Part shown: positions 15,451 through 29,096 of the stretch, in pieces
How positions within the stretch are numbered: the first letter of the stretch is position 1
How the letters are laid out: each line of letters starts with the position of its first letter
NCBI GenBank assembly: GCA_017395365.1
Contig: JAFPUN010000015.1
Location: 1 to 64,000, forward strand
Direction: 5' to 3'
Length of the DNA: 64,000 bases
DNA from: Bacteroidales bacterium
GTDB lineage: Bacteria; Bacteroidota; Bacteroidia; Bacteroidales; F082
Translations under genes and position numbers: made by a program
The notes under the pieces: generated by a model
Database searches by the model: none
Told to the model about the DNA's origin: nothing
The model's input: the letters and a program-made list of their open reading frames with translations, nothing else

Positions 15451-15538
15451 CAAATCTAAACTGCACTAATCGGAAAGTTTTTCATATCCTAAACTGCACT
15501 AATCGGAAAATTTTACGCCATACAAACTGCACTAATTT
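15451..15538 (-). promoter_or_regulatory. Orphan promoter with three 33-bp repeats
   Basis: TAAACTGCACTAATCGGAAA occurs at 15457-15476 and 15490-15509, with a partial copy at 15522-15538; the AAACTGC core recurs at exactly 33-bp steps (15458, 15491, 15524). On the - strand TAGATTTG (15451-15458) is a -7 element at the leftward edge. The layout copies that of the DUF4143-type ATPase promoter at 14591-14675, yet no ATPase follows, only a 32-codon open frame (15337-15435, - strand, start MYFVDILNVL). Its gene appears to have been lost. The 15197-15663 gap holds nothing else recognisable. Confidence 0.6.
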
Positions 15539-16696: not shown

Positions 16697-16765
16697 CGCA
16701 ATTCTATACCGTTTTTATCGTCAAGCATAAAATAAGCAATTCTTCAAATTCTTCGTTTGTAAAGT

Positions 16766-16860
16766 ATTGGTAATTAAATATATGTTCATTTGTCTTTCGA
16801 CTACGCAAAGTTAATGCTGAATACCCGCATCTCGCAAGTGGTGTTGATAACTTTTTCCAA
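16766..16860 (-). promoter_or_regulatory. Promoter block B, duplicated at 15213-15309
   Basis: Homologous to block A. The - strand -7 element here is TAACTTTG (16806-16813), with the TTGCGAG word upstream. It lies between the 544-residue gene and the 121-residue gene and drives the latter. Confidence 0.65.
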
Positions 16861-16880
16861 AAAGCGTTGTTGTTTACGAA

Positions 16881-18515
16881 TCAAAACCACATTCCACAAT
16901 GGAACTGGAAAAGGATTTCTTCGTCTCTCGTTTTAGACACAACGCTTCCAGCTTTTATCTTATATGTGACGCGTTCCCTAGCCAACCCCTTCCAATTATT
17001 CCAATAGGTACAATCGACAAAGGCTACATAGCTGTCCTCATCTTCCTTACCAACTTCTACAAAAGGCAACAATTTCTCTTGTTTGATTAGTGCTGTTAAA
17101 TCATGATATTTCAACGGCATAATGTCGTCAACATCCGATTCCTTGAATATGTATTCGCATCTATTGTATCCCCCATGCCAAACCGTTGGCAAAACAGTAT
17201 AATAGTTTTCGAGCAGATACAACTGCCATGCTCCCATTTCGGTAGCATTGACCACTAAATGCTCCGTAAGGTCTTCGGTGGCATTCCCTTCTTCGTCCAC
17301 AATCCTAATATGCGTGATGTCACCGCTCCCTTCATTTGAAGGCATAGTTACTTCAAACCTATAGCCCTCTTCCACTTTTATTTCCGATGGTTGGGGGATT
17401 AGGTTATCCGCGAATGCTTTTCTTACGACTTCCCTCAATTCCGGGACAACCTCATCATCCATAGCATTCTCAAGAAAACTAACACAATCCTCCGAATACA
17501 TCTTTTTCGCATACTCAGAAAAAGCATTGCCTTTGTCGGAATACTTTGAGCCTTCTACCGGCACGTCCTTCTCGTCATCGGATTCCTCGGTTTTCACCTC
17601 CTTGTATTCCACAACTTGGCCACAATGGGGACAGACTGACACCTGTCCAAGTGTCCAGTTCTTATAAAACCATTCTGGAATCCTAATGCTATACCATCTC
17701 AAATCCTGCGATTCCACCCCATAATGCAAGCAGGGTATTCTGTCCGTCAGCGGCATGGGGTTCCCGTCTTTGTCAACGGATTCCTCCAACGGTGCCAGGA
17801 ATTGTTTTATCCGCTTATACTCCATGGGGTAGTTGAGCATGTTGTCGTCAGAGTAGGGCGAAGTCAAACGCTCGGGCAACGAAACGATTTTGACAATCTT
17901 CCCCTCTTCGATTTGGAACATGATCAGTTGAACCTCTTCTATCCTTAAGCAGGCATGGGAATAATAGCGGCTCATAACGATTTCAAGGTGAGTCACATCT
18001 TTGGTCAGCACATACCTATTCCGCCAATCCCACCAGTAAGCCTGCACATCGGTCTTCCCTTTTATGGTCTTCAGCCGATACAATACGGTCTCAACCATCT
18101 CGTCCAGCATGTTCTCAAAGTTGTCAAATGTCCCAAAGATCAAAGCGTCCAGCATAACCTTCGATGCCTGTGTAAAAATGTCATTGGGAAGATTCTCTTC
18201 CATCTTGGCCGTGTACTTCTTCTCTTCCTGCGGCTCTGTTTCTGTTTTCATTTTCTTATTCATTTTATTGTGTTTTAAGGATTTGTCGATTAGGAACACG
18301 ATGATAATGACAGGCATCAAAGGCGGCACCAGAAAAACTATGGCTGCATGCGTGCCAATCCGTTTCCACAGAGAAGGTGTTGTTGTCATCCCAAGTGCCT
18401 TAAAAGCCGCTATCTTGAGACGGTTCTTCTTATCATTGTATGCGCGAATGCAATATGTCGCACCAACAGCCACCGACCAATAAATGGCGATAATAATCCA
18501 AGTCTTCATAATCAT
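16881..18515 (-). CDS. Unknown membrane protein with zinc-ribbon-like CPHCG motif, 544 aa
   Basis: Two N-terminal hydrophobic segments (about residues 4-22 and 52-75) precede a Glu/Lys-rich linker. Then comes an alpha/beta domain (about 105-240) with an NTF2-like look (YRLKTIKGKTDVQAYWWDWRN; HLEIVMSRYYSHACLRIEEV), a CPHCG knuckle near residue 295 without an obvious second pair, and an acidic C-terminal half. No family recognised. It is followed by the 121-residue gene and preceded, 9 bases away, by another two-helix membrane protein, so the two are probably co-transcribed. Confidence 0.6.
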   Translation of the reverse strand: MIMKTWIIIAIYWSVAVGATYCIRAYNDKKNRLKIAAFKALGMTTTPSLWKRIGTHAAIVFLVPPLMPVIIIVFLIDKSLKHNKMNKKMKTETEPQEEKKYTAKMEENLPNDIFTQASKVMLDALIFGTFDNFENMLDEMVETVLYRLKTIKGKTDVQAYWWDWRNRYVLTKDVTHLEIVMSRYYSHACLRIEEVQLIMFQIEEGKIVKIVSLPERLTSPYSDDNMLNYPMEYKRIKQFLAPLEESVDKDGNPMPLTDRIPCLHYGVESQDLRWYSIRIPEWFYKNWTLGQVSVCPHCGQVVEYKEVKTEESDDEKDVPVEGSKYSDKGNAFSEYAKKMYSEDCVSFLENAMDDEVVPELREVVRKAFADNLIPQPSEIKVEEGYRFEVTMPSNEGSGDITHIRIVDEEGNATEDLTEHLVVNATEMGAWQLYLLENYYTVLPTVWHGGYNRCEYIFKESDVDDIMPLKYHDLTALIKQEKLLPFVEVGKEDEDSYVAFVDCTYWNNWKGLARERVTYKIKAGSVVSKTRDEEILFQFHCGMWF

Positions 18516-18524
18516 CCATTTTGC

Positions 18525-19148
18525 TTATTTAAATCCAATAGTTTTACTCTCTGTATTGTTGGGATAATCCCGCTCCAAATAAGGATAAATCTTGCTATAA
18601 TCCTCTAAAGCACCTCCGATGGCCTTATACGCTCTGTCAAATTCTAACATAAAATCACGAGAAGATTCAATAGCACTCTGATAACAACAGCAAAAATGAT
18701 CCGACAGCGCAACAAAAGTAGTGCTGGTATTGTTGAGATTGATAGAATTGGCAACTCTGTTCCAGCCATCACTTGTGACCTTTTCAAAATCGTCGTCTCC
18801 GAAGTCATAAATGATGTAAAGGTGTTTTATTCTTTTATTAATACCATCTGCAAGTTGGACTCGAAAACGATTATCATTCTTTATGACATATAAAGTGCCA
18901 TCTTCCTTTTCATGGCGAAAGCCCTGCCTGTCAAGTTGCTTACAGATGGCTTCTTCTAGATGGTCAACGCTTTTAATCATTCTTAACCAAATAAAGGCAA
19001 AGACTACAATCCCAACGATTATAACCCCTGCTACTCCCGCAATAATAGGAGAACACTGAAACAGATAATACAACGACCAGCCTATTACAGCGCAAATGGC
19101 GAGTACACCCGTGATATAATTAAAAGTGTTGTCTTTTTCGTTTTCCAT
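18525..19148 (-). CDS. Unknown two-helix membrane protein, 207 aa
   Basis: Two adjacent hydrophobic helices (about residues 10-30 and 33-55) act as a hairpin anchor for a cytosolic domain (VDHLEEAICKQLDRQGFRHE, then LHVIYDFGDDDFEKVTS-like strands). No family recognised. It sits directly upstream of the 544-residue protein on the same strand and downstream of a 51-residue acidic gene. Confidence 0.6.
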   Translation of the reverse strand: MENEKDNTFNYITGVLAICAVIGWSLYYLFQCSPIIAGVAGVIIVGIVVFAFIWLRMIKSVDHLEEAICKQLDRQGFRHEKEDGTLYVIKNDNRFRVQLADGINKRIKHLYIIYDFGDDDFEKVTSDGWNRVANSINLNNTSTTFVALSDHFCCCYQSAIESSRDFMLEFDRAYKAIGGALEDYSKIYPYLERDYPNNTESKTIGFK

Positions 19149-19174
19149 TTTTTTGTCTTTTAGTTTATGTTTTA

Positions 19175-19330
19175 TCAGAACCCAAGAAAATCATAATCAA
19201 CACCGGGCCCTGGATAATCGCCATACATTCCATCTGTCAATGCCCACCATGTTTCTTCTCCCCAATCTGGCTGGTCATAATTGCCACAGTCCACATAATC
19301 ATCTTCGTAATAGCCTTCTTGGTTTTCCAT
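19175..19330 (-). CDS. Small acidic, Tyr/Trp-rich protein, 51 aa
   Basis: An open frame of 51 codons with ATG at 19330 and TGA at 19175. It encodes a protein rich in Asp/Glu, Tyr, Trp and Gly (MENQEGYYEDDYVDCGNYDQ at the start, GPGVDYDFLGF at the end) with almost no basic residues. It fills the gap between the 207- and 278-residue genes on the same strand with even spacing. The composition is reminiscent of small nucleic-acid mimics or binding linkers, but no function can be given. Confidence 0.5.
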   Translation of the reverse strand: MENQEGYYEDDYVDCGNYDQPDWGEETWWALTDGMYGDYPGPGVDYDFLGF

Positions 19331-19366
19331 AGCTTCTAATGGTTTTATTTATTCAAAATTTGTTTT

Positions 19367-20203
19367 TCATTTATTGTTTATGATGCCCAGCCTAAAAAAG
19401 TAACCATCTCTGGGAAACTTTTTTTCCTCTGCAGGTGTGGTGTGTCCAATGTGCCATTTCCCACAATGAGCACACTGGTATGCGCTTACAGGTTTCTTGT
19501 CTTCAGGATGCCGGCGCATAAATTCCATGGCGGCTTCTGTAGCTTCCTCATAAGATGAATACTCCATCTTCTTTTTGAAAACCATTCCACCGGCAATTGG
19601 ATCATACATCTTTTTCCAATGTGTACCATTTGTCCTGCAAAGGCCCATAGTACATTCTACTTGACCAAGATTGTGCAACTGGAACGAAGTGGCTCTTTTC
19701 ATATAGTGTCTATCACGGCCTCCATGGTCTTCGTCATTCTTATGCTGCCGATAATAGGCCTGGCACATTCTCTTTTCAACAATGCGTCGAACCTTACGCG
19801 ACGTGGCACCATCCTCCATTGTAATATCAATATCGCGAAGGCTTTCACCATCCATAAAGCGCAACTTTTCATTGTACAGTTTTTTCGTTGTACTGGCAAA
19901 CCGTTTGGCTTGACCATTTGAACTGTTCTTTTTTGACTCTTTCTTCATCCTACCAGCTTCAGCATGATCTAAAATCCTATATGCGCTTTGCACTTTGTTG
20001 AGCAACAAAGAAGCATCGTAAATACCAGAAATGGAGTAGTCGCGGCAATCGCGAATAGCATTTCTGGCTGCATTAGGCTTACCTGACGAAATGAATGTTC
20101 CAAATGTGGCAAAATCGTTGCTGATATTCCATTGATCAACCTTGCCGAAATTGATTAGGGATGATTCCCATCTTTTGAGTGTGCTTTTGACTGTCTGTTC
20201 CAT
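19367..20203 (-). CDS. Unknown protein with C-terminal CxxC-H-H zinc motif, 278 aa
   Basis: A soluble basic protein. The N-terminal half is helical, with the middle rich in Lys/Arg (KKESKKNSSNGQAKRFASTT). Near residue 245 it has YQCAHCGKWHIGH, a zinc knuckle found in several small nucleic-acid-linked proteins of Bacteroidota. It may bind DNA or RNA. It begins the leftward series of unknown genes and is divergent from the sigma factor operon, sharing a 57-107-bp intergenic region. Confidence 0.6.
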   Translation of the reverse strand: MEQTVKSTLKRWESSLINFGKVDQWNISNDFATFGTFISSGKPNAARNAIRDCRDYSISGIYDASLLLNKVQSAYRILDHAEAGRMKKESKKNSSNGQAKRFASTTKKLYNEKLRFMDGESLRDIDITMEDGATSRKVRRIVEKRMCQAYYRQHKNDEDHGGRDRHYMKRATSFQLHNLGQVECTMGLCRTNGTHWKKMYDPIAGGMVFKKKMEYSSYEEATEAAMEFMRRHPEDKKPVSAYQCAHCGKWHIGHTTPAEEKKFPRDGYFFRLGIINNK

Positions 20204-20275
20204 AATATCAAACTTTTATTTGACCTTTATGTCAGCTCTTCACAAAAGGTAATCACTCGTTGACACTAAAATTCA

Positions 20276-20283
20276 TATATTTG
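20276..20283 (+). promoter_or_regulatory. -7 element of the sigma/caspase/CHAT operon (TATATTTG)
   Basis: TATATTTG fits TAnnTTTG and lies 28 bases before the GTG proposed as the sigma-gene start. A TTGACA word sits at 20260-20265, closer than the normal -33 spacing. No other promoter element was seen before the CHAT gene, so the five genes are probably one transcript. Confidence 0.55.
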
Positions 20284-20310
20284 CAGTCTAATCTGGAAAA
20301 CAAGAAAAAG

Positions 20311-21009
20311 GTGGAACTACCTAAAATATTGTCAATCAACAACGAGCCGCGTCTCATCGAAAGGATTTACGAAGGTGACAATCGGGCTTTCTCTACTTTA
20401 TATGAAAAGTATAGGCCCAAATTCTTTGGTTATTTTCAAGGGTCTTTTTCTGGAGAAGAAAAGAACGAACAAATTGCCGACTTATACCAAAATTCCTGCT
20501 TAAAGCTATACAATCAAATCATTACAGGCAAAATGTTTGTTCAAGACAAAAACATCTATATAAGAAGCAGAGAAGGTAAGATAAATGTTTTGTCTGCAAA
20601 ACTTGATACATATCTAATTGGTATCGGCAAGTTTTCTTTTTTGGAAATGCAACGTGGAGAACGCAAGTATGTCAGTTTTGACCCCTTTGTTAATGTGCTA
20701 AGCATAGATGATTATACTCCAGCCGATGATGATACTAACGCTAACCCGCTTCTTGAAATCACTGAAGACCCATATTTTGAAGATGAAGCCAAATTCACTT
20801 TGGTACGTGAGATTGTTGATGCAATGGGAACTCCATGCAAAGAGATTTTCACCTATTTCTATTTCAGTGAAGATGGGAAAAAGAAGACACTCGAAGAAAT
20901 TGCTAAAATAATGCCTAGATATAGTAGCGCCGACTCGGTTAAAAATCAGAAATCTCGTTGTCATAAAAAATTCAAGTACGCTTACGAAAAAGCCTTATCG
21001 GCTCAATAA
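20311..21009 (+). CDS. ECF-like sigma factor
   Basis: About 232 residues. The N-terminal part (RLIERIYEGDNRAFSTLYEKYRPKFF) matches sigma region 2.1, with later segments DLYQNSCLKLYNQI and YLIGIGKFSFLEMQRG as region 2.3-2.4-like. The C-terminus (FYFSEDGKKKTLEEIAKIMP...SADSVKNQKSRCHKKFK) has region-4-like helix-turn-helix spacing. An unusual insert (about residues 70-135) sits between the two. The next gene encodes an anti-sigma-like membrane protein. Start choice: the frame is open back to a TTG at 20260, but that overlaps the promoter, so the GTG at 20311 is preferred; no ATG is available nearby. Confidence 0.8.
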   Translation: MELPKILSINNEPRLIERIYEGDNRAFSTLYEKYRPKFFGYFQGSFSGEEKNEQIADLYQNSCLKLYNQIITGKMFVQDKNIYIRSREGKINVLSAKLDTYLIGIGKFSFLEMQRGERKYVSFDPFVNVLSIDDYTPADDDTNANPLLEITEDPYFEDEAKFTLVREIVDAMGTPCKEIFTYFYFSEDGKKKTLEEIAKIMPRYSSADSVKNQKSRCHKKFKYAYEKALSAQ

Positions 21010-21026
21010 TATGGAGGATAACTATC

Positions 21027-21653
21027 ATGGAAGAATTTGAAAATACCACATTCAATAAAGAAATAGCTGAAAGAGTTGACCGTTTCCTCCGTAAGGAAAT
21101 GACTGAAGAGGAGTCCATAACGTTCATAGAAGAGGTCAAGTCAAATCCAGAATTAAAGGAATACTATCAGCGTCAGTTCAACTTGATGAGAGGCATCAAT
21201 TTTGAACAGATGGGCGAACTCATGAAAACAAAAGAGAAAGAAATAGTCAACAGAACCTCTAGGACTATTACATATAAAATTATTTCATTTGCAGCCGCAG
21301 CGATGCTCTGTATCGTTTTCGCTTCAGATTTCATTGTTTCGATGCGTGTTGGTTCTAATGTGTTAAAACAAGAATTAGCCGTTATACAAAAAGGCGACAA
21401 TGATATTGACAACCTGTTATTAGAAGGCGAATACACGAAAGCCCTTGATGTAATTGATAAAGAGTTAGAGATGGAGTATGAATTAGGCGACGACCACGAA
21501 GCAATCGAGGCATATAATCAATCCATGAATGATTTGAAATACAAAAAAGCACTGGTTTATTTGAAGATGGGCAAGAAGAAAAAAGCGAAAGAAATCCTGC
21601 ATGAACTTAATGATGAAAGATCGCGGGAAGTGCTTGATAAATTGCTATGGTAG
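21027..21653 (+). CDS. Anti-sigma-like membrane protein with C-terminal TPR-like helices
   Basis: A 208-residue protein, 17 bases after the sigma gene. Residues 1-65 (ERVDRFLRKEMTEEESITFIEEVKSNPELKEYY) resemble a zinc-free anti-sigma or FecR N-terminal helix bundle. One membrane helix follows at about 88-108, and the C-terminal half has TPR-like helices (EGEYTKALDVIDKELEM; KKALVYLKMGKKKKAKEI). This is the layout of an anti-sigma factor with an extracytoplasmic sensor domain. In this operon it is the natural candidate substrate of the caspase- or CHAT-type peptidase, which would free the sigma factor. That is an inference. Confidence 0.7.
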   Translation: MEEFENTTFNKEIAERVDRFLRKEMTEEESITFIEEVKSNPELKEYYQRQFNLMRGINFEQMGELMKTKEKEIVNRTSRTITYKIISFAAAAMLCIVFASDFIVSMRVGSNVLKQELAVIQKGDNDIDNLLLEGEYTKALDVIDKELEMEYELGDDHEAIEAYNQSMNDLKYKKALVYLKMGKKKKAKEILHELNDERSREVLDKLLW

Positions 21654-21681
21654 TTATACATAATAAATACGCGTGGCGCAA

Positions 21682-22707
21682 ATGAAGAAACCTATTATAA
21701 TTCTGTTGTGTAGTTTTTTTCTATCCTTTTCGTTGGTTGCCCAAAATAAGGCAATCCTTATAGGCATTTCAGATTATCGACCTGAGAGTGGCTGGCGAAG
21801 TATTAGTGCTCACAATGATATAGAACTACTGAAAGCTTCGTTAGCTCCAGACTGGAACGTTACCACATTGGAAAACGAAAAGGCTACTCATGACGGCATT
21901 ATAAAACTTCTTGAAAATATAGCATCACAAGCAGTTCCTGGTGATACGATATTCATACATTTTTCTTGTCATGGTCAACAAATGATACCAGAGGTTGTGT
22001 CTGATGATGAGCCAGATTGTTTGGATGAAGCGCTCATCCCATATGACGCATTAAAGAATTGGACACAAAACTATAAAGGGCATAATCATATACGGGACAA
22101 CGAATTGGCCTACTACATAAATCTTATACGCAATAGTGTAGGTGAAAACGGCATGGTTATAGTAACGCTTGACGCATGTCACAGCGATGATATGCATAAA
22201 GATGATGGAAACCCTAAAAGCATGGATTCTACCATTTATCGTGGAACATCAGATATTTTTGGCGATCCAAACAGAATAACCGATTCTGTCATAAAAAAAA
22301 GGTATGCCAGGGACACTAGTATTATTGCTGTAAATAGTAATTCTGATGTATTTTATTTAAGCGCATGTCAGGCACATTCTCAAAACGCAGAAATAGTTTC
22401 GCCAAATGGTATCGGCTATGGCTCTCTATCTTATGCTATTGCCAAAACCATGAAAAACGGAGCGTTTAATAACATTCCTGCTTTTCTTGACCAAGTTATC
22501 ATTGAGATGGATTCATTGGTGCCATACCAAACACCTGGCATCCGCGCTTCGTTCAACTACACAATGCCCGTCATTCAAACGAAGAGTGTTATTGAAAAAA
22601 CAACAGAAAAGGAGGGTGCCGAAAAGCCTCATTCAAATACGTTCCTTTACGTCATTGCTTCTATTGCATTACTAACACTTATAATATGGAGAATAGCAAA
22701 GAAATGA
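21682..22707 (+). CDS. Caspase-like peptidase (C14), secreted and membrane-anchored
   Basis: A 341-residue protein. A signal peptide (MKKPIIILLCSFFLSFSLVA) precedes the caspase fold: KAILIGISDYRPESGW opens it. The catalytic His97 lies in HFSCHGQQM and Cys166 in VTLDACHSDD. DDEPDCLDEALIPYDA fits the acidic P1-pocket region of metacaspase/orthocaspase types, which usually cut after Arg or Lys. A C-terminal hydrophobic segment (FLYVIASIALLTLIIWRI) with a basic end anchors it. The ATG at 21682 is chosen over the GTG at 21673. It follows the anti-sigma gene and overlaps the next gene by 22 bp. Confidence 0.9.
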   Translation: MKKPIIILLCSFFLSFSLVAQNKAILIGISDYRPESGWRSISAHNDIELLKASLAPDWNVTTLENEKATHDGIIKLLENIASQAVPGDTIFIHFSCHGQQMIPEVVSDDEPDCLDEALIPYDALKNWTQNYKGHNHIRDNELAYYINLIRNSVGENGMVIVTLDACHSDDMHKDDGNPKSMDSTIYRGTSDIFGDPNRITDSVIKKRYARDTSIIAVNSNSDVFYLSACQAHSQNAEIVSPNGIGYGSLSYAIAKTMKNGAFNNIPAFLDQVIIEMDSLVPYQTPGIRASFNYTMPVIQTKSVIEKTTEKEGAEKPHSNTFLYVIASIALLTLIIWRIAKK

Positions 22708-23765
22708 ATAATAACGACACATTTCAGGATGCAACAAAACCAAGCCTAACCTTTACAGTGTTTTTGGGCATTTTCTTTTGTTATTTGTTTCGCATCACAT
22801 TAGGTGCTATATCACAGTTCTCAAATTGGATTATTCCCGAAATACACCAATCAAACTCTGCTATTGTTTATTCTATATACTACACAGTTTACTTTCTTTG
22901 GATTGTTTTTGGTTTTTGGTCAATCATCCTTGCGCTAAAAGGTGCCAAAAATGCAATTAGCTGTCTCAAACTATGCTTACCTTTCCACTTTGTTTCATTC
23001 TTATTTTCAAGCTTGCCTAAACTATCAGGTGTAAATATTATATCTTTAATAATTCTGCTATTCCCATTAGTTTTTTTCCTTTTTCTCTGTTTTTCAAAAG
23101 ATATTAAAGAAAGGTATCCTAAAAACGAAAGGAAACTTGGCGCCCTTGGTTATATTGGTATCATATTGTATTTGATATTGGCCTTCCTCTTTGTTCGTAG
23201 GGTGGTTGCAGATGTTTCAAAAAGACATTATAGCAAAAAGGTTGACCCAGATAAAATAGAGCTATTTTCTGGAGAATTGACAGATGGTAGGGTTATATTC
23301 AAACCATTGCAGGAATGGTATCTGGATTCTAAATCAGAATTAAACACTGTTCAAGATGCATTTTATTTCCACGACACAATAAGTCAGTCTTCAATAAGTG
23401 TTGTATGCGCCACAGAAGAGTATGAGCCTTTGCGATATAACTACATCTACTCAATTTCTGAGAATCAGCCCTTAGAAACACGTTATTTCATAGAAGAAGC
23501 TGGTTATAAAGAGATAGACACCGCTGACTATATAATATTTATTGACCAATATGTCTATCAAATAGATTCTTCTCTTTTTTATTGGACATACGCCTCGAAA
23601 CTTTGGAAAGACGTTGAGAAAGGGATACGTTTATCTATTTTAGATAAAGATAGTTTAAAAACCTCAATAGATGAAGCTGTTGAGTTTCTTGAAAACACTT
23701 CAATTGACATAAAAGGAAGATCTATTCAAAGAAAAGCGAATAGACCAAAAACACAAGAGCGATAA
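22686..23765 (+). CDS. Unknown polytopic membrane protein, 359 aa
   Basis: Four to five hydrophobic segments in residues 20-180 (LTFTVFLGIFFCYLF; SIYYTVYFLWIVFGFWSII; FLFSSLPKLSGVNIISLIIL; LGYIGIILYLILAFLFV) are followed by a soluble domain of about 180 residues (DKIELFSGELTDGRVIFKPL onward). No family recognised. It overlaps the caspase gene by 22 bp, which implies translational coupling, so it probably works with the peptidases, for instance as membrane platform or substrate. ATG codons at 22686 and 22704 are both possible starts. Confidence 0.75.
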   Translation: MENSKEMNNNDTFQDATKPSLTFTVFLGIFFCYLFRITLGAISQFSNWIIPEIHQSNSAIVYSIYYTVYFLWIVFGFWSIILALKGAKNAISCLKLCLPFHFVSFLFSSLPKLSGVNIISLIILLFPLVFFLFLCFSKDIKERYPKNERKLGALGYIGIILYLILAFLFVRRVVADVSKRHYSKKVDPDKIELFSGELTDGRVIFKPLQEWYLDSKSELNTVQDAFYFHDTISQSSISVVCATEEYEPLRYNYIYSISENQPLETRYFIEEAGYKEIDTADYIIFIDQYVYQIDSSLFYWTYASKLWKDVEKGIRLSILDKDSLKTSIDEAVEFLENTSIDIKGRSIQRKANRPKTQER

Positions 23766-23946
23766 AGCCTATGAGACGAACAATCCATCCAAGCCCTCCT
23801 GGCAATAAAAAGAAAAAGAACCTTTCGGCTAAAGCCTCTTTGAGTTTTTTCTTCATGACCAAGCAATCATAAAGGACAAGAAAGATATAAACCGCAAGTA
23901 AAAGCAGTAAAATCTCCCTAATTATCGGCATCCAAGCATTTTTCAT
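23722..23946 (-). CDS. Possible small two-helix membrane protein, 74 aa
   Basis: On the opposite strand inside the operon, this open frame encodes two plausible membrane helices (IIREILLLLLAVYIFLVLYD; GLGWIVRLIGFIALVFLVYS) with basic loops. A TATTTTTG -7 element (23951-23958, - strand) lies only 4 bases before the ATG, so a transcript would be leaderless. It overlaps the 3' end of the 359-residue gene by 44 bp. It may be real, or a chance frame in AT-rich DNA. Confidence 0.35.
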   Translation of the reverse strand: MKNAWMPIIREILLLLLAVYIFLVLYDCLVMKKKLKEALAERFFFFLLPGGLGWIVRLIGFIALVFLVYSLFFE

Positions 23947-23966
23947 AGCGCAAAAATATCAAAACT

Positions 23967-26555
23967 ATGGCAAGTAACAACAAAGAAAGCAAAAAAAAGA
24001 ACCAACAAGTCAAAGAAGGTATTATAGGAACATTAGGGTGTTGCATAAAACTACTTCTGAGTTTAGTCTGCCTTGTTATCAGCATTTGCTTCCTTTTGTT
24101 TATTGCTAGATTACTTTTTCCAAAAAAAGTCAACCTATTCAATTATCATCTTTCAACTCGAACATTCGTTGAATTGAAAGCAGCTCATAAGTATAAAGCA
24201 GCAGCCGATTTTTATGAACAAAAGAGAGAGATTTTCACGCAACAGGGTGATAAATATATCAACATGACAGAAGTGTTTGATTGCTACAAAAGAATAGGGG
24301 AGTACGAAAAAGCTGAAGCAATTCTAAGAGACATGGATAGCTTAAAATACTTATCAGACAAAGAATTAAAGATGCTTGATAAAGAACCATGGTATTTAGG
24401 CTTCTTTCGATTCAATATAGCAAAAGAATACTTCAATCTATATGAAGAAATGGGCGATGTTGAAGGGCAAAAACACTATTTTGAAATAATGAAAGAGTGT
24501 CTTTCGCCTGATATTAAAAAGAATATTACCGAAAAATTAGGAGAGAAAAGCGTTTGGGCAGTAGATAACACGTTACGTTTATGCGAACTTAAGATGTTGT
24601 ATTTGTCTTCTCCCATGAAAGCAATTGTTGGAATGAATGACTATCTTGACGAAATAACAGATAGTGAGAATCACGGGCCATCCTACATATTAAAATGCGC
24701 AAATCTTTTGAACAATTGGATAATTGAACAAAGGGGTTCTTTGCCTGCATACGAATCAATATGTATTGCAGTGGATTATGCGTTAAATACTGATGTATAC
24801 AATGAAGATAAATCCGAATACGGAACATTGTCTGATATTTGCTATAAAGTTCACGATATCAAGAATAGCAAATGGTTCTATTCAAAATACACCACATTTC
24901 TGGAGGAGAGCACTTCTAAAGACGACCCCTTATATATTGAAAACCAAATAAGAGGATTCCGATACTTGGAAGATGAGCGAAACTGGGCCGAATTAGAGAC
25001 ACAAGTTATCGAATGTTGTACTGGTCTAAGGACTTTGTTGTCTAAAAACATATATACAATGAGCGAATCCCAAAGAGAGCATTTTGTCAATCTTCTTAAT
25101 GGCCCATTCGATTACGCTGCTAATCTATTATATGACCATCCTTCAGAAAAATTGGCATCACTCTGCTTTAAGAATTCCATTTTTATGAAAGGACTTCTTC
25201 TTAGATCAAGTCGTGAAATAGCTAACAAAATAAAGCATAGTGGTGACACCTCTTTGGTCTCAATGTATAACCAATTGCAAGAATATCGTAAAGAGTTGTC
25301 TTATAGAGAAGGATTAGGAGAAATCGGAAATGCAATAAGAATCCATCAACTGCGCAAAGATATTGATGCTTTGGATAAACAACTTGCCGTTTCTTCCAAA
25401 GACTATCGTATTGACCAAGAAAACAATTCTGCTTCAATACGATCTATAAGCAAAAGCTTAACTTCAGTTGATGCCGTCATTGATTATCTTCAGACAGATT
25501 CCGGCAAACTCATCGCACTTATTCTTACTAATTCTGGAAAAGTTGTATCTGTGAATTTAGGTTCAGAAGAGATGGTGCCGATCCATCCAAGCGCAAGGAA
25601 AACTTATTCCAACAAGGCCCTAACAGACTTTATATGGTCACCAATAGAGCCACACCTTAACGGTGTCAAGAATATATACTACTCGACTACTGGTCTCTTC
25701 AATAGTATTTCTTTCCAAGCTCTTGCATTAAGCACAGGCGAACATCTGATTGATAGGTACAATTTTCATCTTCTTTCAAGTATTTCGTGTCTTCTTTCAT
25801 CGCAAAACGATATGTTGGCTCAAAACAGAACAAACATGGCCATTTGGGGTGATGTGGATTATGGAAACAAGGAAACAGCGGCACCAGAAGACACAATCAA
25901 AAGAGATGTTGAAAGAGGCTCGCACCTTAGGCACCTTGTTTATTCCAAAGATGAAATTGATTCAATACGGCAAATTGTAAATGCTTGCAACGCTAACATC
26001 TCCTTTTTTGCTGGAACGGCTGCCACGGAACATTCTTTCCGTTTAAGGTCTGGTATGGGAGATAATATCCTTCATATATCAACTCACGGTTTCTTCGATG
26101 AAGACGATGCACACAGAAAGGACTATAATCCTATGTACAATTCAGGCCTTTTCTTCGCAGGTGCTGATTCAACATGGAATAAAGTTGAAACAGTTTTTGT
26201 TTCTGAATCAATGGAAGATGATGGGATTTTGAGAGCTAATGAAATCCAATATTTGGATTTCTCAGATTGTTCTCTTGTTGTATTGTCTGCATGCAAAACC
26301 GGTCTCGGGAAAAACAAGTCTTCTGAAGGCGTATTTGGTTTACAGCGTGCATTTAAGCTTTCAGGTGTTGAAAAGGTATTGATGAGTCTTTGGAATGTTA
26401 ATGACTATTGGACATCACGATTAATGCAAGAATTCTATCGACAATATTTTATAGAAGGCCTATCAGAAGAAGAAGCTCTTCATGCTGCCCAGGCCGCCCT
26501 CAGGCGAGAGCATCCTTCACCTGAGTATTGGGGTGCATTTGTGCTTCTTAACTAA
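23967..26555 (+). CDS. Membrane-anchored TPR-CHAT peptidase
   Basis: An 862-residue protein. One membrane helix at about 24-50 follows a basic N-terminus; helical TPR-like repeats (ADFYEQKREIFTQQGDKYIN, VFDCYKRIGEYEKAEAILRD and others) span about 60-470. A CHAT domain, a relative of caspases, covers about 500-862, with catalytic His707 in ISTHGFFDED and Cys776 in VVLSACKTGLGK. GVFGLQRAFKLSGVEKVLMS and WGAFVLLN close the domain as in the family. CHAT proteins in other systems cut a partner protein upon a signal sensed by the repeats. It ends the sigma/anti-sigma/caspase operon. Confidence 0.9.
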   Translation: MASNNKESKKKNQQVKEGIIGTLGCCIKLLLSLVCLVISICFLLFIARLLFPKKVNLFNYHLSTRTFVELKAAHKYKAAADFYEQKREIFTQQGDKYINMTEVFDCYKRIGEYEKAEAILRDMDSLKYLSDKELKMLDKEPWYLGFFRFNIAKEYFNLYEEMGDVEGQKHYFEIMKECLSPDIKKNITEKLGEKSVWAVDNTLRLCELKMLYLSSPMKAIVGMNDYLDEITDSENHGPSYILKCANLLNNWIIEQRGSLPAYESICIAVDYALNTDVYNEDKSEYGTLSDICYKVHDIKNSKWFYSKYTTFLEESTSKDDPLYIENQIRGFRYLEDERNWAELETQVIECCTGLRTLLSKNIYTMSESQREHFVNLLNGPFDYAANLLYDHPSEKLASLCFKNSIFMKGLLLRSSREIANKIKHSGDTSLVSMYNQLQEYRKELSYREGLGEIGNAIRIHQLRKDIDALDKQLAVSSKDYRIDQENNSASIRSISKSLTSVDAVIDYLQTDSGKLIALILTNSGKVVSVNLGSEEMVPIHPSARKTYSNKALTDFIWSPIEPHLNGVKNIYYSTTGLFNSISFQALALSTGEHLIDRYNFHLLSSISCLLSSQNDMLAQNRTNMAIWGDVDYGNKETAAPEDTIKRDVERGSHLRHLVYSKDEIDSIRQIVNACNANISFFAGTAATEHSFRLRSGMGDNILHISTHGFFDEDDAHRKDYNPMYNSGLFFAGADSTWNKVETVFVSESMEDDGILRANEIQYLDFSDCSLVVLSACKTGLGKNKSSEGVFGLQRAFKLSGVEKVLMSLWNVNDYWTSRLMQEFYRQYFIEGLSEEEALHAAQAALRREHPSPEYWGAFVLLN

Positions 26556-26560
26556 AAGCC

Positions 26561-27229
26561 TTAGTTCATCGGAATCACATTAGCTACAAGTTTGGAGTGC
26601 CATCCTTGGTGTTCAACACCAAGTGATATGGTCATATAGTATGCATCGCTCCCATTAAGGCTTTCAACATCGTAATCTGCCTTCTCGGAAAAATCAGGAT
26701 CCGTAACAGGCAGGTCGTATTCAACACCATTGTACATGAAGTTCACCCTCAAGCGCTTGTAATCGGTACCGTAACGGTTTTCCATGAAAAAAATGACATC
26801 AGTCGCTTTAATAAGCATCAGCGAATATCCCATTGTCTTATAACTATCTGGATGCACGGCCTTTCCTCTATTACCGAAAAGCAGATTATGGCGCGTATCA
26901 CAGAGCATGTTAAGTGTTTTAATATTCGTATTTAGATGGCCAACCTTTTCTATACCTTCAAAATAATAATTCTCGCTTTGCGCACAATCAGGACATGCTT
27001 CCACACCTGTAAGTTTTACAATATCCATCACTTTACAAGTGCTTGAAAGATGCATCGGTATTTCACCATGCTCTGTTCCTCTTGTTACTGGGCGAACCCA
27101 TTTCGGTGTTCCATTTTCCCTAACAATCATATAAAAACTTTCTTTTGGGTCGGTAGTGACTTCTACGCCACCTATGCAACGTCCTCCGTACTTGTAGGAG
27201 ACTGCCATGCAAACAAAGTATTTATCCAT
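26561..27229 (-). CDS. Unknown protein, possibly dual OB-fold, 222 aa
   Basis: A soluble protein opening MDKYFVCMAVSYKYGGRCIG, then WVRPVTRGTEHGEIPMHLS. This order recalls a small family of dual OB-fold proteins sometimes found near DUF488 genes; the recollection is weak. A CPDC motif lies near residue 78. It lies on the same strand as two DUF488 genes just upstream, but a 13-bp hairpin (27347-27380) and a gap of 117 bases separate them. It converges with the CHAT gene, with five bases between. Confidence 0.5.
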   Translation of the reverse strand: MDKYFVCMAVSYKYGGRCIGGVEVTTDPKESFYMIVRENGTPKWVRPVTRGTEHGEIPMHLSSTCKVMDIVKLTGVEACPDCAQSENYYFEGIEKVGHLNTNIKTLNMLCDTRHNLLFGNRGKAVHPDSYKTMGYSLMLIKATDVIFFMENRYGTDYKRLRVNFMYNGVEYDLPVTDPDFSEKADYDVESLNGSDAYYMTISLGVEHQGWHSKLVANVIPMN

Positions 27230-27346
27230 TTTTCATTACTTTTTTGTTCGACTTATTGGACGCTTCTTTTTTTTTGTCCTTCGTCTCTTTATGACAGTCA
27301 AAACAAAAAGGTAATCATTGGGATAATTTTTTTGGTATTAAAATAG

Positions 27347-27380
27347 TACAAGGGAGACACAAAAGAGTCTCCCTTGTACA
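27347..27380 (-). terminator. 13-bp perfect hairpin ending the DUF488 operon
   Basis: GTACAAGGGAGAC (27347-27359) and GTCTCCCTTGTAC (27368-27380) pair perfectly over an 8-base loop, 20 bases downstream of the 122-residue gene on the - strand. The T-run after it is broken (CTATTTTAA), so termination may be partial. Confidence 0.7.
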
Positions 27381-27400
27381 TTATGCCAACAAAAAGAATC

Positions 27401-27769
27401 TTATATTAAATTTGCTATGATTGCAAGTACAATGGCAAGGAAAAGCTTTGACCAAACGGAAAACCCCGTACCTCCAGAAACATAATTGTAATTTGCTTGA
27501 GTAATTGCCTCAAATAAAAGAGTGAAAAGGGAAAATAGAATGAAAAACGAAGGTATTGCAATCAAAATACACCAATACCAATCAAGGCAAAACAATGCAA
27601 TGAAATCTGACGCAATAGTTCCAAATGAAAGAACCGTAAAAATAATCATCAACAATCTATTTCTCATATATTGAGGAATGTTGATTTCTGCATATAAACG
27701 AATCGAATTATGATGAGCATTCGCCCATAGGCAAACAATAATAGAAATAATGGCCAAAGCTACTTTCAT
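27401..27769 (-). CDS. Unknown membrane protein, 122 aa
   Basis: Four hydrophobic stretches (KVALAIISIIVCLWANAHH; LLMIIFTVLSFGTIASDFIA; WCILIAIPSFFILFSLFTLL; VWSKLFLAIVLAIIANLI) make a small polytopic protein. No family recognised. It lies nine bases downstream of the second DUF488 gene on the same strand, so it is the last gene of that operon. Confidence 0.6.
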   Translation of the reverse strand: MKVALAIISIIVCLWANAHHNSIRLYAEINIPQYMRNRLLMIIFTVLSFGTIASDFIALFCLDWYWCILIAIPSFFILFSLFTLLFEAITQANYNYVSGGTGFSVWSKLFLAIVLAIIANLI

Positions 27770-27778
27770 AATGCTATG

Positions 27779-28237
27779 CTATTTAAGATGAATAATATTA
27801 ATATTCTTTTCGGGATTTGATGATTTCAAATACTCTACAACCAATCTGCGGTGGCACATTTCTGGAGTATCTTCGGTGCAAAGAAAACAGCATTTGTCAA
27901 ATTCCTCAATAGGAAATCTCTCTGCAATATGGCGCTGCTTTAGAAGGTTGTTAAACACAACAGTATAGCCATTCCAATCAATGACTTTGTCTTGATAATC
28001 TTTAAGCAATTCTTTGGTAGGTGCCAAATCTGTAATGTGAACATATTCTGCGTTACAAATCTCTTTCATGAAAAACTCTAAGTCAATGCCTTTTGCAAAG
28101 CCAGCAAGTTGACTTGAATTATTGATGCGAATATCTACAAGTTTCTTGACTCCAGCGTTCTTTAATAGTCCAAAGAATTTCCTTGCGTTCTTCTTTGTAA
28201 ACCCTATAGTATAAAGTGTAATCATATCAAAATTCAT
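27779..28237 (-). CDS. DUF488 family protein (second copy)
   Basis: About 152 residues. LYTIGFTKKNARKFFGLLKN at the start and FLCTEDTPEMCHRRLVVEYL near the end are hallmarks of DUF488, whose function is unsettled; the C-x-E-x4-CHR motif is conserved. It overlaps the end of the first DUF488 gene by about 11 bp if the ATG at 28237 (MNFDMITLYTIG) is used; an ATG at 28225 is also possible. The two copies share the motif but differ widely elsewhere, so they are not a recent duplication. Confidence 0.8.
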   Translation of the reverse strand: MNFDMITLYTIGFTKKNARKFFGLLKNAGVKKLVDIRINNSSQLAGFAKGIDLEFFMKEICNAEYVHITDLAPTKELLKDYQDKVIDWNGYTVVFNNLLKQRHIAERFPIEEFDKCCFLCTEDTPEMCHRRLVVEYLKSSNPEKNINIIHLK

Positions 28238-28850
28238 TTTCGTTTTCTTCACCTGGTTTAAATCCAATAGCTTTGTTCTTCAATCGATAGGCGTCTCTGC
28301 GTTGGTCTTCAGCGGTATAGGTGCCAAACAAAGCATCCACTTCTGGAAGTTTGCTGTTGCGTTTGCGTAGCATACCTTCTATCATTTCATCCTCTAACTC
28401 TTTATGGGTTTTGATTTCCGAAGTATGCAATATATGAAACACATCATATCCGTTGTCATAAAAATAACGAGATACCATAGAAAAACGATGGCAAGCCAAT
28501 GGATCTGCTTCTGAACACATCAAAGCAATATTGTGCCCTTGTTCTACACCGTTTTTTACTCGTTCTACTCCTTTAAGAAACGCCGGTGTCGTTACCGCCT
28601 TTTCAAAATTAACCTGGCCATCAATTATAGCATCGTATCTTCTGGCTCCAAATTCTTCTCCAAAATGCAAGTAATAGATTCCTTTGCTTGACAGGTAGCG
28701 TTTCAAGTTATCTTTGTTGAATTGTGGCGTATATGCACTTGCAGGAACGCTGCGAACATCCACCACACAATCAATCCTTGCTAATGTCAACAATGACAAA
28801 AGCTCTTCTGTAGTGCCATTTGAATGGCCAATTGTGTAAATCTTGTTCAT
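28227..28850 (-). CDS. DUF488 family protein (first copy)
   Basis: A 207-residue protein. IYTIGHSNGTTEELLSLLT, VVDVRSVPASAYTPQFNKD and ALMCSEADPLACHRFSMVS are the conserved DUF488 segments. A charged C-terminal extension of about 50 residues is specific to this copy. It leads a leftward operon with the second DUF488 copy and a membrane protein, from a -7 element at 28893-28900. The family appears in stress and defence islands, but its activity is not established. Confidence 0.85.
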   Translation of the reverse strand: MNKIYTIGHSNGTTEELLSLLTLARIDCVVDVRSVPASAYTPQFNKDNLKRYLSSKGIYYLHFGEEFGARRYDAIIDGQVNFEKAVTTPAFLKGVERVKNGVEQGHNIALMCSEADPLACHRFSMVSRYFYDNGYDVFHILHTSEIKTHKELEDEMIEGMLRKRNSKLPEVDALFGTYTAEDQRRDAYRLKNKAIGFKPGEENENEF

Positions 28851-28892
28851 TTTTCAAAATGCGTTTTCTACAGGTTTATGTCAACTTCAACT

Positions 28893-28900
28893 CAAAAGTA
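28893..28900 (-). promoter_or_regulatory. -7 element of the DUF488 operon
   Basis: On the - strand TACTTTTG fits TAnnTTTG, 43 bases before the first DUF488 start. Confidence 0.45.
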
Positions 28901-29096
28901 ATCTTAAGTAATAGTTTTTTTGTATCCAATGTTCAAATTTCTCTCGATTATAATCGCCTACAAAAATACTACTTTTCTCGGCTTAAAAGCCATACTTCAA
29001 TTATCATCTTCTTTTTGGGAACGGCTGCTTTTACTTATTATCATGCTTCATCAAGCAAAAATCACCTCTTTGAAAATATGGCAAAGTCCCGATTGA

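Follow-up and report, generated by a model that had tools for sequence, protein, structure and literature searches.

In the Craspase/DiCASP systems of type III-E CRISPR (Cas7-11, Csx29, Csx30, CASP-sigma), a CHAT peptidase with tetratricopeptide repeats (TPR-CHAT), a sigma factor of the extracytoplasmic function (ECF) type and the inhibitor of this sigma factor are encoded in one locus, and the inhibition is relieved by the protease, as described in passages of PMC10028731. Here, we analyzed a locus of a Bacteroidales bacterium (F082; GCA_017395365.1, contig JAFPUN010000015.1; draft genome 72.6% complete) that lies in a stretch of 64,000 nt, hereafter the window, and encodes a sigma factor, a membrane anti-sigma factor, a caspase, a polytopic membrane protein and a TPR-CHAT peptidase. 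We consider it somewhat likely that this locus encodes an envelope-facing proteolytic switch, in which periplasmic peptidases of the caspase fold release the sigma factor by way of the membrane anti-sigma factor.

The likeness to the protease-relieved inhibition of Craspase is proposed here; the trio of TPR-CHAT, anti-sigma factor and ECF sigma factor matches that system by kind of protein and not by homology to Csx29 or Csx30. Unlike the cytoplasmic Craspase, the window peptidases are predicted to be exported, the anti-sigma factor to span the membrane, and a second peptidase is present. The original prediction, made from the DNA letters, had drawn the same analogy without fixing a compartment; the analogy is retained, with the peptidases now predicted to be exported or tethered outside and the anti-sigma factor to cross the membrane. 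A plain relative of Craspase was rejected, because Csx29 was not among the PDB sequence matches of the window CHAT domain at E up to 1, the RAMP family of Cas7-11 (PF03787) gave no match in this incomplete genome in a kind of search that had also missed the window caspase with PF00656 (a false negative), and no CRISPR-like array of direct repeats was found within the window at the settings used.

The resemblance to RseA/DegS/RseP lies in the single-pass anti-sigma factor with its N-terminus inside (59 of 63 relatives, see below), in the periplasmic cutter that is expected, in the M50 protease gene that the genome contains, and in the trypsin-like peptidases of some loci. The two differ in that the site-1 role is proposed here for caspase-fold cysteine peptidases, and in that RseA carries an RseB-binding domain, instead of which the present anti-sigma factor has a periplasmic TPR part.

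Among Bacteroidales, EcfO and Reo with their dual-membrane-spanning anti-sigma factors (Bacteroides/Phocaeicola) are likewise ECF/anti-sigma pairs answering envelope attack, according to passages of PMC9308784 and PMC13114119; Reo differs by its outer-membrane barrel, and the word caspase is absent from these two texts. Caspase genes stand beside sigma genes in the metacaspase-sigma-70 operons of Myxococcus and others, which differ in being reported from Deltaproteobacteria, Ralstonia and Fibrobacter (PMC3501461, in part), and a CHAT/subtilase gene stands beside the sigma gene in ECF54, which is said to lack an anti-sigma factor (PMC8999054, in part). Neither the caspase-CHAT-anti-sigma set nor a periplasmic placement occurs in the relevant passages of these two papers. 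The EACC2-caspase systems also bring together a caspase, an ECF sigma factor and a TPR protein (DUF1822) (PMC8195603, in part), but the window caspase matches only the N-terminal part of NF047832 (30.6 bits over residues 26-103, cut-off 140), and no EACC domain turned up in general library scans, none of which was aimed at EACC. In the titles, abstract openings and passages of the open literature among the matches listed, a scope outside which most subscription papers lie, no description of the set was found. The recurrence, in many gut and rumen Bacteroidales, of two caspase-fold proteases predicted to be exported together with a sigma factor and its membrane-spanning inhibitor suggests an undescribed envelope alarm.

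Genes of the locus and their predicted placement

All five genes of the original prediction were found by library matches at the positions it had claimed (Table 1). The catalytic pairs that it described as intact were confirmed, the caspase and membrane-protein genes do overlap (22 bp), and the region is indeed AT-rich, with a GC content of 0.36-0.38 across 20-28 kb vs 0.46-0.60 outside about 14-32 kb. Its view of the genes as one operon fared less well: a conserved antisense gene of 74 residues, which it had overlooked, lies between the membrane-protein gene and the CHAT gene, so a single transcript reaching CHAT is doubtful.

Table 1. Features of the locus (window coordinates)
Feature	Position	Strand	Basis
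AAAGGTAAT element upstream of sigma gene, possible regulatory box	20245..20253	+	count of motif AAAGGTAA
ECF-type sigma factor	20260..21009	+	TIGR02937, E 6.4e-6, under curated cut-off; family-profile matches to ECF structures
-7-like box TATATTTG	20276..20283	+	
Single-pass anti-sigma factor (predicted): cytoplasmic N-part, transmembrane segment ~81-99, periplasmic linker with K122-G123, TPR C-part	21027..21653	+	library matches, hydropathy, alignment
Codons of K122-G123, candidate site-1 cleavage position	21390..21395	+	linker column conservation
Caspase (Peptidase_C14), export-type N-terminus, extra C-terminal transmembrane segment; likely ATG start 21682	21673..22707	+	PF00656, E 5.7e-13
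Polytopic membrane protein, soluble C-part of ~190 residues	22686..23765	+	no Pfam match over cut-off
74-residue protein with two transmembrane segments, antisense, between membrane-protein gene and CHAT	23722..23946	-	codon-position substitutions vs L064
TPR-CHAT peptidase, N-terminal transmembrane anchor, predicted periplasmic body	23967..26555	+	PF12770, E 1.5e-50

Judged by its sequence, the sigma factor is a divergent ECF factor with sigma2-sigma4 homology: its family profile finds solved ECF structures such as SigH, SigW and RpoE, and TIGR02937 was matched by 9 of 10 family members. The N-terminal part of the anti-sigma factor matches NF047528 (E 1.8e-5, under the cut-off), TPRs were matched as well, and NF052375 ("antisigma") was matched by 17 of 50 relatives. 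The caspase has, at sequence level, a p20 domain with the His-Cys dyad of Peptidase C14 (H100/C169 counted from the GTG start, H97/C166 from ATG 21682), invariant in 11 of 11 aligned caspases; its PDB sequence matches are GSU0716 and metacaspases. Likewise, the CHAT protein is by its domain and dyad (H707/C776, invariant in all nine aligned) a CHAT peptidase. Its TPR match is weak in the window (E 0.72), and the repeats show clearly in the profile of the family.

Topology was called throughout with simple hydropathy scripts. Transmembrane segments were placed at residues 7-25 and 324-342 of the window caspase and 29-47 of CHAT, the latter probably not removed. A hydrophobic N-terminus was detected in 77 of 79 caspases vs 279 of 623 unlabelled open reading frames (ORFs), in 62 of 77 CHAT ORFs (52 of the 59 with at least 700 residues) and in none of 60 sigma factors; many such N-termini have an AQ-type region at their end. 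The C-terminal segment of the caspase was seen, beyond the window, only in L064-L067 among 80 caspase loci (numbered L below). Lys and Arg are more numerous before than after the transmembrane segment in 59 of 63 anti-sigma factors and fewer in one, which predicts that the N-terminus is inside and the TPR part periplasmic. Given these hydrophobic N-termini and this charge bias, the caspase and CHAT bodies and the TPR part of the anti-sigma factor are predicted to lie on the same, periplasmic side.

Recurrence of the set in Bacteroidales

With the window caspase as the sole query, matches were found in 14 of 149 genomes of relatives, and several of these loci had caspase, sigma, anti-sigma and CHAT genes side by side. 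A scan of Bacteroidales species genomes with a caspase alignment confirmed 176 places; the caspase loci considered below are the 80 that ranked best and therefore lean to the window caspase. In 79 of them the caspase was called as an ORF, and 43 have 6-kb flanks on both sides. Five loci used in building profiles recur among the 80 (L018=L064, L019=L070, L020=L081, L021=L119, L022=L128), and near-duplicates (e.g., L118/L119 and L127/L129) were kept in locus counts and collapsed only for the 69 upstream regions analyzed below.

Within 6 kb of the caspase, the 43 full-flank loci contained a sigma factor in 36 cases, an anti-sigma factor in 39, CHAT in 39, all three in 33 and none in one (L121). 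Since these loci were retrieved by the caspase alone, chance neighbours were rejected, and the routine scattering of homologous genes that the original prediction had named as its refutation was not what was found. The order of genes varied: among the 79 loci, with unlabelled genes ignored, caspase-sigma-anti-sigma-CHAT was found in 31, sigma-anti-sigma-caspase-CHAT in five, CHAT-caspase-sigma-anti-sigma in four and caspase alone in five, with further orders that included CHAT on the opposite strand. That the association persists through such rearrangement argues for a functional link between the four proteins. In 52 loci with all four genes, distances correlated best between sigma factor and caspase (0.70), followed by sigma and anti-sigma (0.58), caspase and CHAT (0.32) and sigma factor and CHAT (0.21), all uncorrected for species phylogeny. 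These correlations suggest that, of the two peptidases, the caspase would be more closely tied to the switch, with CHAT as a more exchangeable sensor.

Other genes were less regular companions. A trypsin-like gene was found within 2 kb of the caspase in 6 of 80 loci; Trypsin_2 was identified in three scanned proteins with export-type N-termini (L127:7831-8979, L086:11797-13059 and L025:8531-9763); at some loci such a gene immediately precedes the caspase. PPC-like lipoproteins occurred somewhere in the stretch of 11 of 80 loci (the one scanned matches PPC weakly, E 0.029). SIR2_2 scored over the cut-off in L127 and just under it in L025.

A conserved position in the anti-sigma linker

Alignment of 50 anti-sigma factors (mean column identity 23%) revealed a basic residue followed by Gly or Ser, at a median of 24 residues beyond the end of the transmembrane segment. 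The position aligned to window K122 is Arg in 45, Lys in 4 and His in 1, and the next residue is Gly in 42 and Ser in 6 (48 of 50 together). The remaining linker columns are mostly highly variable, with entropies near 3 bits, apart from a fairly conserved Tyr five residues upstream (37/50). The pair [RK][GS] was found in 58 of 63 anti-sigma linkers vs 14.4 in shuffled sequences, and RG in 47 vs 3.8; no such excess was present in 52 other transmembrane proteins of the same loci (13 vs 11.5). We regard the K122-G123 position as a candidate cleavage site. Known substrates of bacterial caspases and CHAT peptidases are, to our knowledge, few. For orthocaspases, a passage of PMC6426788 states that cleavage occurs after positively charged residues.

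Proposed switch and alternative explanations

In the proposed switch, the single-pass anti-sigma factor, with its periplasmic TPR domain, would hold the sigma factor at the inner membrane. TPR-CHAT and the caspase would be exported and, in the subtype of the window, membrane-tethered, with TPR-CHAT as the sensor and initiator. The trigger may be an envelope insult, such as phage adsorption, an antibacterial toxin or damage of the outer membrane. TPR-CHAT, directly or via the caspase, would then cause a cut after the conserved basic residue of the juxtamembrane linker, and a resident M50 (RseP-type) protease, a gene for which is present in the genome (E 6.1e-39), would complete the cleavage and free the sigma factor. 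The regulon and a protective outcome would follow; these, together with export, the cleavage and its order, and the trigger, we infer. What the sequences themselves show are the genes and how they are linked, the conservation of catalytic residues, the hydrophobic N-termini, the orientation of the anti-sigma factor, the nearly invariant [R/K][G/S] position, the M50 gene and the exchange of the cassette. A more specific version has an exported TPR-CHAT sense attack, an exported caspase specific for Arg/Lys cut the Arg/Lys-Gly bond of the anti-sigma factor and the sigma factor be released, with the sensor-effector cassette swapped between strains in an immune-like manner. We advance this two-step cascade only tentatively.

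The role of the caspase was examined from the side of the anti-sigma factor, whose alignment matched 146 of 198 genomes of the order. From the best 47 matches, 41 gave 40 control regions (L166-L205), known caspase loci having been excluded beforehand; those left out were four at known small-caspase loci, one identical to L151 (long caspase) and one second place on G581:C18. Within 6 kb, the 40 loci had a sigma factor in 37, CHAT in 26 and a caspase in none. Among their 24 long CHATs (at least 700 residues), 22 had a hydrophobic N-terminus, 21 a C-terminal transmembrane segment and 18 the Cys motif as searched. Of 25 pairs counted, 23 had CHAT on the opposite strand. Weak CHAT matches of 1000-1140 residues had been suspected to be PorU of the type IX secretion system; this was rejected, as those scanned, in L180 and L202, are true CHAT proteins.

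Several observations weigh against the proposed switch. R[GS] was kept in 35 of these 40 caspase-free anti-sigma factors vs 5.6 in shuffled sequences (RG alone in 9 vs 1.9), and the caspase as a universal cutter was therefore rejected. The pair also persisted where CHAT was not detected within 6 kb, which was the case in 14 of the 40 loci (some of them lie on short contigs), and the linker position may thus be structural or serve another protease. The window anti-sigma factor itself carries Lys, not Arg, at the site. An Arg-Gly motif of the caspase, found in 76 of 79 caspases, was rejected as system-specific, as it is also present in 10 of 16 long caspases with the Cys motif and is a family trait. 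An order-wide draw of 295 genomes, 91 of them with any caspase match, gave eight small-caspase loci with usable flanks (left out were the small caspases G108, G552 and G640:C696, which lie on short contigs or at contig ends); CHAT was near the caspase in all eight and an anti-sigma factor in six, one of which (G144) had first been assigned by position and failed BLAST, while a sigma factor was detected in only four. Long-caspase loci had at least one partner in 4 of 14 cases (L150, L151, L159 and L162) and none in the stretch in the other ten, so by this measure the association is not wholly private to small caspases. Finally, 7 of 59 long CHATs lack a clear N- or C-terminal hydrophobic segment, the Cys motif as searched is missing in 5 of 59 (and in 6 of 24 in the anti-sigma-seeded set), and short CHATs of 413-450 residues (L074, L083, L089, L100 and L138) lack both motifs as searched.

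Because the anti-sigma-seeded loci keep the sigma factor, CHAT and R[GS] without a caspase, the older core would consist of the sigma factor, the TPR anti-sigma factor and an exported TPR-CHAT, with the caspase as an addition. The linker site would then be cut by CHAT in general, be shared by several proteases or have a structural role. The signal chain of the original prediction, from TPR sensing and CHAT activation to cutting and sigma release, thus stands in so far as the set is recurrent and a path from protease to anti-sigma to sigma factor is the best reading; the caspase is not essential to it.

The same caspase-free loci, with their frequent CHAT and preserved R[GS], are what would be expected if CHAT alone were the site-1 protease and the caspase an output effector of the same envelope response, which might, e.g., kill the cell or cut proteins of its surface. 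This alternative agrees with the proposed switch on CHAT and departs from it on the caspase. It is possible but on balance doubtful, and the distance correlations, best for sigma factor and caspase and worst for sigma factor and CHAT, speak against it. If the linker pair were instead a structural or binding motif, regulation could be non-proteolytic, through TPR-TPR binding of the anti-sigma factor with CHAT. The persistence of the pair with and without a caspase, and also without CHAT nearby, would fit, as would TPRs on both proteins; however, neighbouring columns of about 3 bits are unusual for a folded element (the upstream Tyr notwithstanding) and the peptidases mostly retain their catalytic residues, and we think this explanation unlikely.

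The peptidases might also be a death or defence effector that acts on other targets, such as the polytopic membrane protein, the 74-residue protein or the PPC-like lipoproteins, with the sigma and anti-sigma factors merely setting expression. The effector-like exchange of the cassette between the window, L064 and L065 (see below), the adjoining candidate defence genes and the RGA-GGP-type motif that 7 of the 11 PPC-like lipoproteins carry are in line with such targets, but relatives of the membrane protein occur in only 4 of 80 loci, whereas the sigma and anti-sigma factors are common partners, and no toxin family was recognised among the five genes in family-library scans. It is improbable in our view. 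The release of the sigma factor by periplasmic caspase-fold peptidases remains the reading that we prefer.

Upstream DNA, cassette exchange and surroundings

We assign TATATTTG at 20276-20283 to the main promoter type of Bacteroidota, as its -7 box. Because of this box, the TTG start of the sigma gene at 20260 is probably too early, and GTG 20311 or TTG 20329 are candidate starts. TANNTTTG was present in 48 of 69 non-redundant operon upstream regions vs 6-13 across ten shuffles; therefore, basal expression is probably driven by the main sigma factor. Further upstream, AAAGGTAA was found in 9 of 69 regions vs a shuffle mean of 0.7 and is confined to some lineages; a promoter motif specific to the sigma factor did not emerge from these upstream regions. 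AAAGGTAATCA precedes the sigma gene and has a second copy in the same locus (20245 and 27307 in the window; 6676 and 14659 in L064), possibly as a shared regulatory box.

A block at 16758-28987 is common to the window and L018/L064, which come from one same-genus genome; beyond it, about 2 to 3.5 kb compared on each side gave no alignment except one piece of 390 columns. Protein identity between the window and L064 is 98.8% for the sigma factor and 60-66% for caspase, membrane protein and CHAT. DNA identity steps sharply near 21.64 kb and is unevenly low to about 27.8 kb, yet DuOB is at 86%. The L064 sigma factor is closer to that of the window (99%) than to that of L065 (73%), whereas its membrane protein and CHAT are closer to L065 (74 and 74%) than to the window (60 and 66%); the caspase is equally distant (61). 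This discordance fits an exchange of the caspase-membrane-CHAT cassette by recombination relative to the near relative. A gene of 308 residues is common to L064 and L065 and absent from the window. Directly before the caspase in the subtype of the window, a protein of 302-311 residues with an N-terminal hydrophobic segment, not found in the window, is encoded in L064:8087-9013, L065:8078-9013 and L067:8093-9001. The antisense gene shows a coding-like pattern against L064 (16/7/39 substitutions by codon position, 52 of 74 residues identical); L065 is alike, and L067 has a positional counterpart.

On the minus strand at 26561-28850, DuOB and two DUF488 genes match the PADLOC candidate models PDC-M45A, M45C and M45B, and by these matches the setting of the cassette is defence-like. 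No tRNA that could mark an island end was found within the window, near-identity comparison gave no match to plasmids, and viral contigs, searched with CHAT only, gave none either. Two 26-nt direct repeats whose starts are 33 nt apart lie at 15456-15514, close to the left boundary of the low-GC region.

Significance

Caspase-containing sets of this kind were found in many gut and rumen Bacteroidales, and some carriers seem to be cultured, as the strain names of L077 and L130 suggest. For this caspase-fold family of gut and rumen Bacteroidales, the prediction now names a target, a short and conserved position within a defined partner. If the proposal is true, periplasmic caspase-fold proteases would join the DegS and Craspase types as another route to freeing a sigma factor, and a large, uncharted class would be added to envelope sensing in Bacteroidales.

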